IMG/VR virus record: IMGVR_UViG_3300022748_000038
Span: 1-30,378 of that record
DNA from: a virus
Reading direction: 5' to 3' (one strand)
Length of the DNA stretch: 30,378 bases
In this document: piece after piece, positions 1,397 to 6,157 of the stretch
Layout of the letters: each line of letters begins with the position of its first letter
How positions within the stretch are numbered: the stretch's first letter is position 1
Position numbers and translations under genes: made by a program
The notes under the pieces: model-generated
What the model was told of the DNA's origin: nothing
What the model saw: only the letters and a program-made list of their open reading frames with translations
The model's database searches: none

Positions 1397-1866
1397 AGCC
1401 CAAAAACACCAAGGCGGACCGCATCCGTACCATGCTGCGCGGCAGAACCAAGGGAATGTCGGCGCAAATGATCGCGGACCACTTCGATCTCGAATCCGGC
1501 TATGTGCGCGTGCTTTTGACCCAGATGCCCGACACGTACATCGAGAGCTGGGATCGCACGAAGTCAGGCCGAGGCTACCTTGCGATATGGAACGTCGCCT
1601 ATCTCCCGCCAGACGCCTTACGCCCAAAATCCGCACCCGTGGAGCGCCGTGTCTACGATGCCAAATACCGCCAGAGGATGCGCAGGATCAAGGTGCCTGA
1701 CGTCATTGAGCCAGTGAAGGACATCGAGCCCATCGAGCCTGTCCAGATCGTCGAGCCCGTCGAAATCATTGAGCCCGTTAAGCTGGAAGTTGCCGTCGAG
1801 GCGCCCGCGATCCAGAGCACAGGACCAAAGACACGCTGGGTTACACCGCCCCCATGGGCAAACTGA
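1393..1866 (+). CDS. Probable winged-helix DNA-binding protein with Glu-Pro repeat tail (157 aa)
   Basis: The first 70 residues look like a small helix-turn-helix/winged fold: TKADRIRTMLRGRTKGMSAQ, MIADHFDLESGYVRVLLTQM, then a strand pair ending RGYLAIWNV. Residues about 103-135 are an unusual tract of repeated Glu-Pro-(Val/Ile) units (IEPVKDIEPIEPVQIVEPVE...), probably an extended linker, before a short conserved-looking tail (TRWVTPPPWAN). It could regulate phage genes, but that rests on fold appearance only. Spaced nine bases from the next gene with AAAGGA before it. Confidence 0.65.
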   Translation: MKPKNTKADRIRTMLRGRTKGMSAQMIADHFDLESGYVRVLLTQMPDTYIESWDRTKSGRGYLAIWNVAYLPPDALRPKSAPVERRVYDAKYRQRMRRIKVPDVIEPVKDIEPIEPVQIVEPVEIIEPVKLEVAVEAPAIQSTGPKTRWVTPPPWAN

Positions 1867-1875
1867 AAGGACCGT

Positions 1876-2076
1876 ATGACTACTAAACTCGATAGCACCG
1901 GCACAGCAGCCGTAGACCACAACTATTTCTGGCAGCCCATGTCGACCTGCCCACGCGGCGTCAAGGTGCAGCTACTCGGCAAAGGTGGCGTGGCTCTCTA
2001 CGGCCAGTACCACGGCAAAGACAATTTCTACACCCATTGGGCACCCCTGCCCAAGCTACGCAAGGAGCAGCCATGA
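1876..2076 (+). CDS. Small DUF551-like phage protein (66 aa)
   Basis: The core runs FWQPMSTCPRGVKVQLL, GVALYGQYHGKDNF and YTHWAPLPK. The combination of an early W-x-P-M motif and a terminal THWxPLP motif is that of the DUF551 group of short phage proteins, whose function is unknown. The start has AAAGGA eight bases upstream. The stop overlaps the next ATG (2073-2076). Confidence 0.65.
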   Translation: MTTKLDSTGTAAVDHNYFWQPMSTCPRGVKVQLLGKGGVALYGQYHGKDNFYTHWAPLPKLRKEQP

Positions 2077-2246
2077 CCAACGCCTTCACCATCGACCGCA
2101 GCAAGCCGAGCATCGCCATCGAGCTCGACAAGAACAACCGCCACCGCCAAAAAATGACCAAGTGGGTGAGCGAGCAGCGCGAGAAGGGCAAGGAGCCCAT
2201 GCGCATCGCGTTGCCCAACACACCAGAGCCAAAGAAGGTAAGATAA
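2073..2246 (+). CDS. Small basic hypothetical protein (57 aa)
   Basis: The ATG at 2073 is chosen over an earlier one at 2037 because it has AAGGAG (2062-2067) at good spacing and makes the standard ATGA overlap. The product is basic and helical (ELDKNNRHRQKMTKWVSEQR, then EKGKEPMRIALP). The gene stops at 2246, directly before the first helix of the structured RNA region, so this is the last gene of the left cassette. Confidence 0.7.
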   Translation: MTNAFTIDRSKPSIAIELDKNNRHRQKMTKWVSEQREKGKEPMRIALPNTPEPKKVR

Positions 2247-2247
2247 C

Positions 2248-2831
2248 GGTCCGGCCCGTGAAAGCGGGGGCCATGAAGTCAAGCCCTGACCATCTACCGA
2301 TGGAGCTACAGACGGGGCTTGTCTTGATGGTGGTAAGGCAGCGACGGGTCAGCGCCGTCGCACGTGCAAGAAATTCAGCCGCTGCTTTATGCGAGTGCCT
2401 TGCCATCATCGACATCACGCATGGGGATTGCGGACGCTGCGAATGGAGACGCAGCGCTGAGCATCTGTGTAGCAGCAAAACCCAATCCCCAGCCGTGATG
2501 GTCAAGCAAGAAGCACAGGTACTTAGTGGACCGAACGGCCTTGTCGGATTGCGGGATCGCGGTCGCCATCAACATTTTGGGGAAAGCGGATGCTGTGCGG
2601 AAAGGAGCCTCAAGGCGACCGAGCAATTGCCACAGATGCAGCGAGTACCCGACCCTTCGCATACAATCGCCCCCAATGCGCGGGGCTCGACCACTCTTCA
2701 ATCTCGGAATCGTCCACCGGGCAAAAAGCCCATGATGTCTAAGCGATGCGGCCCGCCAGTGTTTTCAACGCATCGACAGGGAAAGTCGCGGTCAGCCGCA
2801 AGTAAGGAGCGGCAAATCATGGGAACGGACC
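2248..2831 (+). ncRNA. Candidate large structured phage RNA (about 585 nt)
   Basis: No believable protein is coded here, but long complementary segments nest in order. Closing helix 2248-2253/2826-2831 (GGTCCG/CGGACC). 2280-2286/2315-2321 around hairpin 2290-2294/2299-2303. A 15-bp helix 2326-2340/2396-2410, capped by 2341-2347/2355-2361. 2413-2419/2494-2500 and 2423-2430/2483-2490, enclosing 2435-2441/2450-2456. 2525-2529/2691-2695. 2560-2567/2614-2621 continuing into 2577-2582/2608-2613. 2669-2673/2682-2686. 2729-2736/2816-2823, enclosing 2744-2750/2769-2775 and 2795-2799/2809-2813. A 9-bp pair, 2461-2469/2631-2639 (GCATCTGTG/CACAGATGC), crosses the 2423-2490 helix as a pseudoknot. The 15-bp helix holds two G-U pairs (2330-2406 and 2334-2402) that would be A-C mismatches on the other strand, so the + strand is the RNA. 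Size and complexity recall GOLLD and ROOL phage RNAs; I cannot assign it to either. Confidence 0.75.
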
Positions 2832-2855
2832 AAAAGGGCGGGGGAATACCCTCGA

Positions 2856-3164
2856 TCACCAGATGAAAAACTCGGTGATGTTATCCGTCAGGGCTCGCAT
2901 GTAGCCCCCGACGTACTCTCGGCTGGGATCAAGGTCGAGCGAAGCCGACGCAATCTCCAGCGCGTCCGACACCCGATCAATCAGGGGCATGCAGACCTCG
3001 GCAGGGCGAAACATGGCAAAGAACTCTGGGGGCGGCACTTCACCCATCTGGGCCGCATGCAGCACCCGCGTGACCCCATTGCCCATATCTTTCAGCACCA
3101 ACGACACGGCACAGGGTGATTGATCCGGTGGCCGATCCGGTAGCTCAGTCGATGCGTTTACCAT
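2856..3164 (-). CDS. Only minus-strand gene: hypothetical protein (102 aa)
   Basis: The codon pattern is regular and the product reads as a folded helical protein (VLHAAQMGEVPPPEFFAMF, PLIDRVSDALEIASASLDLD, YVGGYMRALTDNITEFF), whereas the + strand here offers no frame. An AGAGGA lies just before the ATG on the minus strand. It converges on the structured RNA and diverges from the terminase operon, a position typical of a separately controlled phage gene. It has no visible DNA-binding motif or known family, so calling it a regulator would be speculation. Confidence 0.7.
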   Translation of the reverse strand: MVNASTELPDRPPDQSPCAVSLVLKDMGNGVTRVLHAAQMGEVPPPEFFAMFRPAEVCMPLIDRVSDALEIASASLDLDPSREYVGGYMRALTDNITEFFIW

Positions 3165-3253
3165 TGTCCTCTCGTGGTTCGGTTATGCTACCATCTGGTT
3201 AGGTTAACGAATCAACCGACCGCTACCGGACAAACCATCGGGGCTAAATCGGT
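3165..3253. promoter_or_regulatory. Divergent control region between the minus-strand gene and terS
   Basis: This 89-base gap separates two divergent genes and must hold their starts of transcription. It contains the direct repeat described separately (3175-3206). A possible minus-strand promoter is TTGATT with TAGCAT at 19 bases (weak). On the + strand TACCAT (3189-3194) lies 19 bases after TTGTCC (3164-3169), also weak. Neither is convincing alone. Confidence 0.4.
3175..3206 (+). repeat. Direct repeat TGGTTNGGTTA, possible operator
   Basis: TGGTTCGGTTA at 3175-3185 and TGGTTAGGTTA at 3196-3206 match at 10 of 11 bases and are offset by 21 bp, two helical turns, so a protein bound at both would sit on one face of the DNA. 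A related inverted copy (CAACCGACC) follows near 3213. The position between divergent genes suits an operator. No regulator can be named. Confidence 0.5.
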
Positions 3254-3973
3254 TTGAAGTCAACAAAACTTGACACTCCAAAAACGCAGATGGCACCCCC
3301 TAAAAAGACAACACCTCGACCCAAAAAAGCCTCAGCTCCAGTCGCTAGCGGCAAAGTGCCGCGCAAAGGAGGGAGCTGGAAGGTGATCGGCACGGAAGGA
3401 GCACCACCTCCCGCCAAGGCCAAGCCTGCCCCAAAGGCCGCAAAGAAGCCTGCGCCGAAGAAGGCCACCCCACCAAAGGATAAGACGAAGCCAGCGCCCA
3501 AAGAGCGCGGACGCCCGAGCATCTACACGCCCGAGCTGGCCCGTTCGATCTGCCTTCGCATTGCCGCAGGAGAATCGGTCCGCTCTATTTCCCGCGACGA
3601 AAACATGCCAGCCGAATCGACGATCCGGTCTTGGGCAGTGGACGACATTGAAGGTTTTAATGCGCAATACACGCGTGCGATCCAAATTCGCGCCGTCGGT
3701 TGGGCCGAAGAAATCATCGAGATCAGCGACGACGGCTCGCAGGACACCTACATTGACCCCGCCACAGGCCAAGAGCGAACCAACCACGAGATCGTGGCTC
3801 GCTCGCGCTTGCGCACCGATAACCGCAAGTGGATGCTTTCCAAGGTGTTGCCAAAGGTTTACGGCGACAAACTTGACGTGAACCATGGTGTTCAGCCAGA
3901 AAATCCGCTATCGTCTTTGCTCCAGCGTATTGCTGGAAGTGGACTTCCCGTGATTAAGGACGAACCGACGTGA
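3254..3973 (+). CDS. terS: Terminase small subunit with histone-like N-terminal tail (239 aa)
   Basis: Small terminase subunits recognise phage DNA and hand it to the large subunit for packaging. Residues about 80-239 match the family: GRPSIYTPELARSICLRIAAG, SVRSISRDENMPAESTIRSW (helix-turn-helix), then WAEEIIEISDDG and LRTDNRKWMLSKVLPKVYGD. Residues 1-80 are an unusual Lys/Pro/Ala-rich tail with repeated PAPKAAKKPAPKK-like units, resembling histone H1/AlgP tails, presumably a flexible nonspecific DNA-binding arm. An in-frame stop at 3245 limits the start to TTG 3254 (GGGG about 10 bases upstream) or ATG 3290, which lacks a ribosome site; I prefer TTG with moderate certainty. The stop overlaps the next gene's GTG (GTGA). 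Confidence 0.85.
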   Translation: MKSTKLDTPKTQMAPPKKTTPRPKKASAPVASGKVPRKGGSWKVIGTEGAPPPAKAKPAPKAAKKPAPKKATPPKDKTKPAPKERGRPSIYTPELARSICLRIAAGESVRSISRDENMPAESTIRSWAVDDIEGFNAQYTRAIQIRAVGWAEEIIEISDDGSQDTYIDPATGQERTNHEIVARSRLRTDNRKWMLSKVLPKVYGDKLDVNHGVQPENPLSSLLQRIAGSGLPVIKDEPT

Positions 3974-4629
3974 CGCAAGCTGGCATTTACATGCTCGTCA
4001 ACAAAGTGAACGGCAAGCGATACGTGGGATCGAGCCGGAATTGCCTGCGTCGCAAGGGCGAGCACATTAGCCGACTGCGTCGTGGTGCGCACATCAATAC
4101 CAAACTCCAAGCAGCTTGGAATAAGTACGGCGAGCACAACTTCGAGTTCGTAGTGGCCTTCTCAGTTTTAAGCCACGACGACATTGAGAGCGTCGAGCAG
4201 CAGTTTCTCGATGAAATGCAGGCTGTGCAGACTGGCTACAACCTAGCGCCAGTCGCGGGCAACACTGCCGGATGGAAAGCACCGCCAGAGACGCGCAAGC
4301 GAATGTCAGAGGCGGCCAAGAGGCGCGACAACTCTATCCAAGTTGCCATCATGGCTGAGGCCACGCGCGGCAAGAAGCGCCCGCAATACGTGATCGACGC
4401 CATGCAGGCAGGGCGAAAGGCCAATCCGATCACCGTGGAGACGCGCAGCCAGATGGCAAAATCGGCCAGAGCGCGGAGCCGCTACTCGGATGCAGACAGG
4501 GAGGAAATGGCACGACTGAGGGATAGCGGCATCGGGCTGCGCGAGATCGCCCGCAGGTTCAACACCACGAGCCACGCTGCCATCGCGATTTACATACGGG
4601 ACTGGAAGAATGGCCTCAGAAGTCAGTGA
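3970..4629 (+). CDS. GIY-YIG homing endonuclease between terS and terL (219 aa)
   Basis: The N-terminus has the full GIY-YIG nuclease signature: G5-I-Y, Y18-V-G, R28-x3-H32, then HINTKLQAAWNKYGEHNFEF and the catalytic-glutamate helix ESVEQQFLDEM. Residues about 98-116 (GWKAPPETRKRMSEAAKRR) are a NUMOD3-type DNA-binding motif, and the C-terminus holds a helix-turn-helix (YSDADREEMARLRDSGIGLR, EIARRFNTTSHAAI). This order is that of phage homing endonucleases, which cut related genomes lacking the insertion. The start is GTG at 3970, overlapping the terS stop (GTGA); the 3' end overlaps terL by 20 bases. No intron or intein is visible, so it is free-standing. Confidence 0.9.
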   Translation: MTQAGIYMLVNKVNGKRYVGSSRNCLRRKGEHISRLRRGAHINTKLQAAWNKYGEHNFEFVVAFSVLSHDDIESVEQQFLDEMQAVQTGYNLAPVAGNTAGWKAPPETRKRMSEAAKRRDNSIQVAIMAEATRGKKRPQYVIDAMQAGRKANPITVETRSQMAKSARARSRYSDADREEMARLRDSGIGLREIARRFNTTSHAAIAIYIRDWKNGLRSQ

Positions 4630-6157
4630 CCCAATGAAGGAGCTTGAGGCGATCCTGTCCGACCCGATCAAGAGGATCAATTCGCTCTACAAAATTATCA
4701 TCAAAGGTGATGATGGTGAGGACGATCTCGTCGTCCAATTCAAGATGAACCGAGCACAGCGCCGGTTCGTGGAGCGTTTGCACAACAGAAATGTGATCTT
4801 GAAGGCACGGCAATTAGGCTTCACGACGCTCGTGTGCATCGTCTGGCTCGACCACGCGCTGTTCAACAACAACGTGCGCTGCGGCATCATCGCTCAGGAC
4901 CGCGAGGCGGCCGAGGTGATCTTCCGCGACAAGGTGAAGTTCGCCTACGACAACCTGCCGCCCGAGCTCAGAGAGCAATTCCCGCTCGCCAAGGACAGCG
5001 CCACCGAACTGCTCTTCGCCCACAACAACAGCTCGATCCGCGTGGCCACGTCCATGCGCTCGGGCACGATCCACCGCCTGCACATCTCCGAGTTCGGCAA
5101 AATCTGCGCGAAGTACCCGCAGAAGGCCGCCGAGGTGATGACCGGCTCGATCCCCGCCGTGCCCAAGACCGGCATCATCATCGTGGAATCCACCGCCGAA
5201 GGGCAGGAGGGCGAGTTCTACGACATGACGCAGCGCTCCATGGCCCTGCACGACATGAAGCGTGAGCTCACCTTCCGCGACTATCGCTTCCACTTCTTCC
5301 CATGGTGGCAGGCGGCTGAGTACACGATGGACGCCAAAGACCTCGTGCTCGGGCGCAAGGACGAAGAGTATTTCACCCAGCTCGAGGCCACCGAAGGCAC
5401 AGAGATCACGCCAGAGCAGCGCGCATGGTACGTAGCGACCCGCGACGCCGACTTCGCCAGCAACCCCGAGCGGATGTGGCAGGAGTACCCATCCACCCCG
5501 CAAGAGGCCTTCCAGCGCTCGACCGAGGGTTGCTACTACGTGCAGGAGATGGCCGCCGCTCGCAAGACGGGCCGCATTACGCAGGTGCCGTGGGAGAAGG
5601 CGCACCCCGTCAACACCTTCTGGGACATCGGCCTGAACGACGAGATGGCGATCTGGTTTCACCAGCGCATCGGCATCCAAGACCGCTGGATCAGGTATTA
5701 CGAGAATTCAGGCGAGACGTTTGCCCACTACGTCGCCGAGATGCAAAAGCACGGCTACATCTGGGGCCGCCACTACCTGCCGCACGACGGCGACACGCAG
5801 CGCCTCGGCATGGAGAAGAACTGGACGCCGCGCCAGATGCTCGAAGAGCTCGGCCTGCGCAACGTCGAGATCGTGCCGCGCATCGACCGCGTGCAGACCG
5901 GCATCCAGATGACCCGCGATGCCTTCTCGACCTCGTGGTTTGACGAGCATGGCTGCGCTCAAGGCCTTCGCCACCTCGATATGTATCGCAAGGAGTGGGA
6001 CCCCCAACGTGGCGTGTGGAAGGACGAACCCCGGCACGACAAGGCATCCAACGGCGCCGACGCCTTCCGCCAGTTCGGCCAGATTCGGTCAGAGCTCACC
6101 GCAAACGCGTCTACTTCGGTAAAACGCAGCAAACCGCGCAGTTGGCGCACGGCATAA
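4610..6157 (+). CDS. terL: Terminase large subunit (ATPase-nuclease packaging motor, 515 aa)
   Basis: The protein pumps DNA into the prohead and cuts it. The ATPase half shows an adenine-side motif (QFKMNRAQRRF), a Walker A variant KARQLGFTT (65-73), a Walker B-like strand LHISEF with Glu161, and the coupling motif IIIVESTAEG (189-198). The nuclease half shows the three acidic positions: D339 in NTFWDIGLND, D393 in LPHDGD, and D484 in NGADAFRQF. Length is normal for the family. ATG 4610 overlaps the homing endonuclease end; an alternative ATG at 4634 would remove the overlap. Neither has a strong ribosome site, suggesting translational coupling. Confidence 0.95.
   Translation: MASEVSDPMKELEAILSDPIKRINSLYKIIIKGDDGEDDLVVQFKMNRAQRRFVERLHNRNVILKARQLGFTTLVCIVWLDHALFNNNVRCGIIAQDREAAEVIFRDKVKFAYDNLPPELREQFPLAKDSATELLFAHNNSSIRVATSMRSGTIHRLHISEFGKICAKYPQKAAEVMTGSIPAVPKTGIIIVESTAEGQEGEFYDMTQRSMALHDMKRELTFRDYRFHFFPWWQAAEYTMDAKDLVLGRKDEEYFTQLEATEGTEITPEQRAWYVATRDADFASNPERMWQEYPSTPQEAFQRSTEGCYYVQEMAAARKTGRITQVPWEKAHPVNTFWDIGLNDEMAIWFHQRIGIQDRWIRYYENSGETFAHYVAEMQKHGYIWGRHYLPHDGDTQRLGMEKNWTPRQMLEELGLRNVEIVPRIDRVQTGIQMTRDAFSTSWFDEHGCAQGLRHLDMYRKEWDPQRGVWKDEPRHDKASNGADAFRQFGQIRSELTANASTSVKRSKPRSWRTA

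Follow-up and report, generated by a model that had tools for sequence, protein, structure and literature searches.

What fills the gap of some 600 bases beside the packaging genes of this viral genome, if it is not a protein? The DNA in question, referred to here as the window, is a 30.4-kb (30,378 nt) piece of a podophage-type genome, and its gap begins after the stop codon that closes ORF 2073-2246 and extends to ORF 2856-3164 on the minus strand, with the terminase genes lying downstream. A sequence-only reading had placed in positions 2248-2831 a large, highly ordered noncoding RNA with nested helices and a long-range pseudoknot, possibly of a new class. As set out below, part of this proposal stood, namely the helices, the folding, the gap and the noncoding character, and the long-range pseudoknot did not. 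The first packaging gene past the segment is that for the terminase small subunit (terS, 3290-3973, plus strand; phrog_1482, E 1.1e-37; Pfam Sf6_terminase), followed on the same strand by that for the large subunit (terL, 4610-6157; phrog_2, E 3.4e-33, and the context census below). The window TerL shares about 55-82% identity with the TerL proteins of a group of environmental contigs, and about 60% with those of Bcep22/BcepIL02-type Burkholderia phages. Two neighboring genes were noted in passing: a homing endonuclease gene between terS and terL (3970-4629, plus strand; phrog_314, GIY-YIG type match), and the small ORF 2856-3164 itself, which gave no match in a PHROG search and whose relatives share the motif (V/L)(R/K)DMGNGV and precede terS on the minus strand in L009, L010, L011, L012 and L013.

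Folding and coding potential of the segment

The plus strand of the segment folds to an MFE of -240.8, compared with -215.0 +/- 7.3 for shuffled sequences (z -3.55), with none of 100 shuffles reaching an equal value. The minus strand gave only z -1.70 in the shuffle test, and eight control stretches of the window ranged from z +0.87 to -2.19, in support of a large structured RNA encoded on the plus strand over 2248-2831. The helices that had been claimed are present, and include inverted repeats of 18 nt (2413-2430/2483-2500), 16 nt (2271-2286/2315-2330, 88% complementary) and 15 nt (2326-2340/2396-2410). The claimed long-range contacts fared differently. The 9-bp match between 2461-2469 and 2631-2639 that had been read as a pseudoknot is real, but shuffled sequences average 0.94 such pairs and 2 were observed, so that it falls within chance and was rejected. 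Its 3' arm sits in the module called B2 below, whose homologues pair that strand locally (CTGTG/CACAG in the window, CCTTG/CAAGG in L108 and L147). The outermost pair, GGTCCG/CGGACC (2248-2253/2826-2831), also exists, but comparison with other loci lent it no support as the closing helix.

We then considered the possibility that the segment is simply part of a protein-coding gene, given that a single frame, ORF 1985-2866, stays open across all of it. This ORF overlaps two other ORFs, however, and the frame is not conserved: the lengths of 200 homologous A modules (described below) are spread evenly over the three residues modulo 3, about 65% of these homologues have stops in each frame, and no protein frame conserved among them was found. 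The earlier view that no frame here looks real is thus upheld, with the qualification that the gap is not devoid of an open frame, and we give a coding gene practically no weight. Known RNAs did not account for the segment either. An Rfam cmscan of the whole window returned no family at E<=1, with GOLLD, ROOL, group I/II introns, HEARO and phage pRNA included, and a scan of 2200-2880 alone yielded chance-level matches only (best E 0.96). The window record had no match to RF02076 (STnc100; cutoff 47 bits), a tRNA search of the window found none, and the stretch 1800-3400 showed no consensus promoter or terminator.

Recurring modules and their covariation

Sequence comparison of the intact segment was uninformative: BLAST against phages and plasmids gave nothing useful, and blastn and nhmmer searches against 80 loci from TerL relatives gave no significant match. 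At the corresponding genomic position of one TerL relative (L005), however, there were two sub-threshold 19-nt matches, and it was by inspecting these that the motif of module A was recognised: CATCACGCATGSGGATT ... RATCCSCAGYCGTG is present twice in L005, and this motif also brackets 2413-2500 in the window. We scanned IMG/VR with a gapped A pattern in which a free helix position was given as N, and found the module in at least 120 viral contigs, several of which have two or three modules in tandem. With a pattern of this type, 257 Gb of prokaryote genomes yielded only 24 matches; most of these are without flanking conservation in the arms and look like chance, and were not accepted as true A modules. 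The consensus, CCAACACGCATGGGGATTG-insert-CAGTCCCCAGCCGTGTTGGT, consists of an outer stem, an invariant CAT/AGC internal loop, an inner stem and a hypervariable insert, mostly of 40-100 nt. When scored with a matrix whose training set left out both the window and L005, the window copy reached 30.2+30.1 bits, and every other place in the window scored negative.

The stems of module A covary. At the stem N/N pair that was left free in the search we counted GC 114, CG 32, AU 13 and GU 11, and the two positions are paired in 94% of cases versus 59% after shuffling, a difference that is understated because most of the 24 chance-like prokaryote matches stayed in the training set. Covariation counted on the alignment was 0.361, compared with 0.128 for shuffled alignments (0/500 as high) and 0.03-0.09 for slid versions. 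Covariation among homologues, which the sequence-only reading had named as a check on its helices, is therefore present in the A-module stems.

Directly 3' of A lies a B domain, whose 5' stem is formed by the 3' strand of A (GTTGG, GATGG or TTGTGG) and whose 3' end is the complement of this joint (CCAAC, CCATC or CCACAA). In full, the joint strand between A and B reads GTGATGG in the window and GTGTTGG or GTTGTGG in others. Several B types recur and were told apart by their first bases. The type B1, GGTGAATGCGYAGGCTGATRCGC ... GCCGGAGATCAGYRCCGGCCACC, combines two covarying hairpins with an outer stem in which Watson-Crick pairs of four kinds occur; its covariation score was 0.395 versus 0.131 for shuffled alignments (0/500), and position -5 of the outer stem, the most variable position and unfiltered, has GC 67, UA 28 and AU 21 and is paired in 96% of cases versus 50% when shuffled. 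The two hairpin loops are complementary (CUGA/UCAG) in 108/108 relaxed matches, although the relaxed search itself required these bases, which hardly vary, and a fifth U-A pair extends them to CUGAU/AUCAG in 91/108. This complementarity, as distinct from covariation, suggests that the loops may form a kissing interaction.

With these types at hand, the window can be divided into modules, all on the plus strand. It begins with what may be a degenerate A-like module (2271-2330; CCATGAAGTCAAGCCC ... GGGCTTGTCTTGATGG), which consists of the 16-nt inverted repeat and is tentatively placed in type A by its position and joint sequence. The first B position (2324-2410) shares its 5' strand with that module and contains the 15-bp helix GATGGTGGTAAGGCA/TGCCTTGCCATCATC, found as an inverted repeat and in the MFE fold, around a two-hairpin insert for which no homologue was found. 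The canonical A module follows (2413-2500; CATCACG-CAT-GGGGATTG ... CAATCCCC-AGC-CGTGATG), identified by motif recurrence, bit score and covariation, with the outer stem CATCACG/CGTGATG, the CAT/AGC internal loop, the inner stem GGGGATTG/CAATCCCC and an insert (2431-2482) that again had no homologue that we could find. Adjoining it through the joint strand is a module that we call Bx (2495-2573; GTGATGG-TCAAGC ... CGGTCG-CCATCAAC), the same bracket occurring in L192, L258 and L264. Next comes B2 (2579-2650; GGGGAAAGCGGATGCTGTG ... CACAGATGCAGCGAGTACCC), the ends of which are conserved in at least a dozen contigs, among them L103, L104, L108, L114, L125, L128, L135, L140, L147, L151, L180 and L192. 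A 3' domain (2729-2823), closed by the 8-bp perfect inverted repeat CCCATGAT/ATCATGGG (2729-2736/2816-2823), had no homologue among the loci found. Canonical B1 with its complementary loops is absent from the window, although L021, a syntenic TerL relative of the window, has one; B1 is common in arrays but not required. The window thus has A arms with the CAT/AGC loop and a B-type module joined to A, on the same strand as and upstream of a terminase, and three of its modules, A, Bx and B2, were each matched independently in unrelated contigs. We regard the modules as well supported, both as real elements and as homologues. In place of the single nested multi-domain architecture that had been proposed, the segment is a string of interchangeable modules that recur in unrelated phages.

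Two kinds of element outside this scheme were observed. Single B2 modules occur away from any A in L125, L140, L151, L180 and L192 (minus strand) and end 20-29 nt before the start codons of a variety of genes, which suggests that B2 may in addition serve by itself as a 5' UTR element. In the TerL relative L006, a structured stretch at the same position (5790-6150; z -3.41) has a near-perfect long hairpin and no canonical A arm, and is possibly a further module type.

The inserts are far more diverse than the arms. The 279 unique inserts from A and B positions fall into 18 families of at least three members, 23 pairs and 158 singletons, and some inserts were found in A as well as B positions. 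A hairpin resembling the T-arm of tRNAs occurs in 12/179 A inserts and in none of the shuffled ones, a proportion at odds with a tRNA ancestry for all A inserts, which we discarded. As a separate observation, the A insert of L118 (GGAACTGCTATCGGCTCACCG...) is found elsewhere on its own, as an RNA-like element flanked by tRNA genes (L451 1201-1247, Serratia phage 4S; also in Aeromonas and Enterobacter T4-like phages). Conserved arms flanking hypervariable, shuffled inserts, some of them shared between A and B positions, are reminiscent of integron-like recombination sites with their cargo, and the arrays might accordingly be cassettes at the DNA level, their RNA fold being incidental. Against this, the arms show compensatory changes including G-U pairs, the loops are complementary, the strand bias with respect to tRNAs and TerL is strict, one relative (STnc100) is expressed, and the census of array neighbors showed no recombinase association; we regard DNA cassettes as very improbable.

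Genomic context and distribution of the arrays

We next looked at the genes around the arrays. Within 1.5 kb downstream of an array, the longest ORF on its strand is most often a TerL, from several families (phrog_2 in 55/137, phrog_38 in 44/137; Terminase_6N 45, Terminase_3 12), while the upstream side showed only a handful of large terminases. In a census using profiles built from the terminases found downstream of arrays, TerL lay downstream on the same strand in 108 of the 123 array loci with a TerL match (median distance 918 nt), upstream on the same strand in 12 and on the opposite strand in 3; about half of the array loci have no TerL nearby. This very strong adjacency, which extends over several unrelated TerL families, raises the idea that the segment is a packaging RNA or a pac/cos recognition region, and like the phi29 pRNA it would be an RNA beside packaging genes. 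Unlike the phi29 pRNA, however, the arrays had no match to the Rfam phage pRNA models, and their modules also occur away from terminase genes, in P1, ZC03, Klebsiella phage Magnus and PAJU2, in addition to the half of the loci without a TerL nearby. Furthermore, RNA-type covariation that includes G-U pairs is not expected for a DNA site. A role in packaging is, in our estimation, highly unlikely.

The second frequent neighbors are tRNA genes. Although the window has no adjoining tRNA, as had been remarked, arrays in many other phages do adjoin tRNA genes, and all of these are on the strand of the array (42/42 for A within 1 kb, 29/29 for B1 within 800 nt). In L244 (6661-6936), a tRNA-Asn lies exactly between two A modules with zero spacer, as if it were itself a module. 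Transcription signals are enriched: promoter-like sites (at least 10/12 matches) were found upstream of 13% of arrays versus 2.3% at random, and intrinsic terminators downstream of 12% versus 4% at random and 2% on the antisense strand. In L021, at the place that the array occupies in the window, a promoter (5279), the array (approximately 5380-5790) and a terminator (5805) follow one another. In L105, L148, L179 and L200, the last A module runs into an intrinsic terminator (GGGGGTTCGCCCCCTTTTTTT), after which there is a promoter-like TATAGT, and in L090, L149, L177 and L192 a fresh TTGACA-type promoter lies between the array and the next gene. Some arrays or single B2 modules end about 20-30 nt from a start codon.

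The class is widely distributed in cultured phages and E. coli prophages, a spread that the sequence-only reading had underestimated. B1 was found in 233 of 50,697 GenBank phage records, including P1, HK620 and D3-type phages; the A-arm PSSM missed the GenBank phage matches because enteric A arms differ in sequence. In HK620 (L449 1690-1895), A and B1 lie in the late leader, with the annotated pR' and qut on their upstream side and the annotated tQ terminator downstream, and HK633 has B1 at an HK620-like place relative to its annotated pR'. A match resembling the HK620 leader is present in 636 of 5,426 complete E. coli genomes, 97 of which cover at least 80% of the query. P1 has an unannotated array of about 0.9 kb after tRNA-Asn and tRNA-Thr and before tciA. 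It comprises about four A+B units (L448 1715-2640; OP279344.1, approximately 65.5-66.5 kb), the first A insert having a T-arm-like hairpin and the last B being STnc100-like; in the older P1 record AF234173, a protein (plp) was called at this site. The array of phi_D3 lies among tRNAs. That of PY54 is flanked by a DNA methylase gene and a lysis gene and has a terminator after it. The array of Klebsiella phage Magnus appears to occupy about 3 kb, over which short annotated ORFs are scattered, and the A position in Pseudomonas phage ZC03 is taken by an annotated tRNA-Arg. We also observed B1 beyond the repressor gene region, in the leader of the early operon, in L456 (2110-2230; PAJU2), L457, L450 and L327.

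These positions bear on whether the array works in cis, as an antiterminator, attenuator or 5' stabiliser within the transcript of a late or early operon, comparable to the HK022 put RNA or a Q-type leader. Same-strand arrays ahead of terminase or lysis operons, arrays and B2 modules abutting ribosome-binding sites, B1 of HK620 between qut and tQ, and B1 of PAJU2 in a leader beyond the repressor gene would all fit such a role. On the other hand, several arrays have a terminator of their own behind them (L021, HK620, PY54 and the L105 type), others a fresh promoter before the next gene (the four loci with a TTGACA-type promoter), and some lie within tRNA clusters that do not lead directly into a late operon (ZC03, P1). 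An array can reach about 3 kb, as in Klebsiella phage Magnus, far more than a put-like element needs, and the identity of the inserts is hypervariable. Because some arrays abut start codons, we keep a cis-acting leader as a serious, if rather unlikely, alternative.

Proposed function and comparison with known systems

We consider it reasonably probable, though well short of certain, that the segment belongs to a widespread superfamily of modular phage RNA arrays and acts as a stable trans-acting noncoding RNA derived from a late-region transcript. A stable trans-acting RNA is favored because arrays are mixed with tRNA genes on one strand, because a tRNA abuts A in L244, and because STnc100 is expressed. 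In this model, an array would consist of tandem modules, each about 60-120 nt long and folding on its own, in which A and B positions alternate, the former with a two-part stem, an internal loop that is conserved and an insert that is hypervariable, the latter filled by one of several recurring domains (B1, B2, Bx or STnc100-like), and the joint strand common to neighboring A and B modules could close either stem. Placed at the start of the late region, before the terminase or lysis genes, or inside tRNA clusters, and nearly always on the same strand, the array would be transcribed from a phage promoter. The transcript would often end at an intrinsic terminator, or the array would be excised from a longer transcript, like the adjoining tRNAs. 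It would then persist as a stable structured RNA and act in trans, its targets being RNA or protein of the host or the phage; the constant arms would presumably serve folding, stability and processing, and the variable inserts would provide specificity. The steps of processing, trans action and target are those that we infer from arrangement and conservation.

A more far-reaching possibility, which we put forward tentatively and hold to be less likely than not to be correct, is that the arrays form a combinatorial RNA system of tailed phages, built from a shared, shuffling pool of structured cassettes and yielding effectors directed at the host. Dozens to hundreds of cassettes, including real tRNAs and tRNA-like ones, would be plugged into common joint helices, and arrays made at the onset of the late program would each be a custom set of effectors. 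Whichever way they act, covarying modular RNAs are present in hundreds of cultured phages, mostly where no feature is annotated, and as P1 and HK620 carry arrays, the function of such late-region RNAs is directly testable in laboratory E. coli.

How new is this class? The A, B1, B2 and Bx modules and the arrays are not in Rfam 15, and we found no description of modular arrays in the open literature, most subscription journals and preprints being outside the scope of that search. The suggestion of a new class probably holds in that the arrays fall outside Rfam, but STnc100, which is one of the module types, already has an Rfam entry as an sRNA; apart from it, the module types fall outside Rfam families, and would represent a large phage RNA class that has gone nearly unnoticed.

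Among large phage RNAs, GOLLD and ROOL are ornate RNAs of phages and prophages that often lie close to tRNA genes (PMC12286853). The arrays are likewise large, ornate and phage-borne, with some close to tRNAs, and the window segment, at about 600 nt, is of comparable character, which would make a divergent GOLLD or ROOL conceivable. Neither the window nor 16 related array loci matched the GOLLD, ROOL or phage pRNA covariance models, however, and the arrays have conserved modules of their own that differ. That the segment could not be placed in either class on first reading is borne out, and we assign a divergent member of either a minimal probability.

Late-leader RNAs offer a second comparison. 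The 6S RNA of lambda is a late-leader RNA of lambdoid phages. StxS is a stable sRNA derived from the constitutively transcribed pR'-tR' leader (PMC7873438), and the HK620 array lies between pR' and the late terminator, in the position from which StxS arises. StxS is short, Hfq-dependent and acts by base pairing, whereas the arrays are strings of conserved folded domains.

The closest known relatives are STnc100 and PasD. STnc100 is prophage-encoded and related to PasD, with a structure common to both (PMC13192938), and its copies were seen by RNA-seq in E. coli O157:H7 EDL933 (EHEC), one of them verified by Northern blot (PMC5331693). The Klebsiella phage Magnus array contains a full-length match to STnc100 (RF02076) that scores 52.9 bits against a cutoff of 47, and matches below the cutoff occur in P1 and Aeromonas phage ST4, so that an STnc100-type RNA, prophage-borne and expressed (PMC5331693), lies within the arrays of all three. 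As STnc100 is an array module type and an expressed RNA, the class in general is likely to be expressed. The likeness has its limits, since STnc100 was described as one individual sRNA, about 206 nt long, and the window has A, Bx and B2 but no STnc100; the window array is tied to STnc100-bearing arrays via shared A and B1 modules, without a direct match. The arrays nevertheless offer one frame for the STnc100/PasD sRNAs, for uncharacterised late leaders, and for noncoding gaps in tRNA clusters or before terminase genes, and if the combinatorial interpretation is true, STnc100 and PasD would be single cassettes that have escaped from such arrays.
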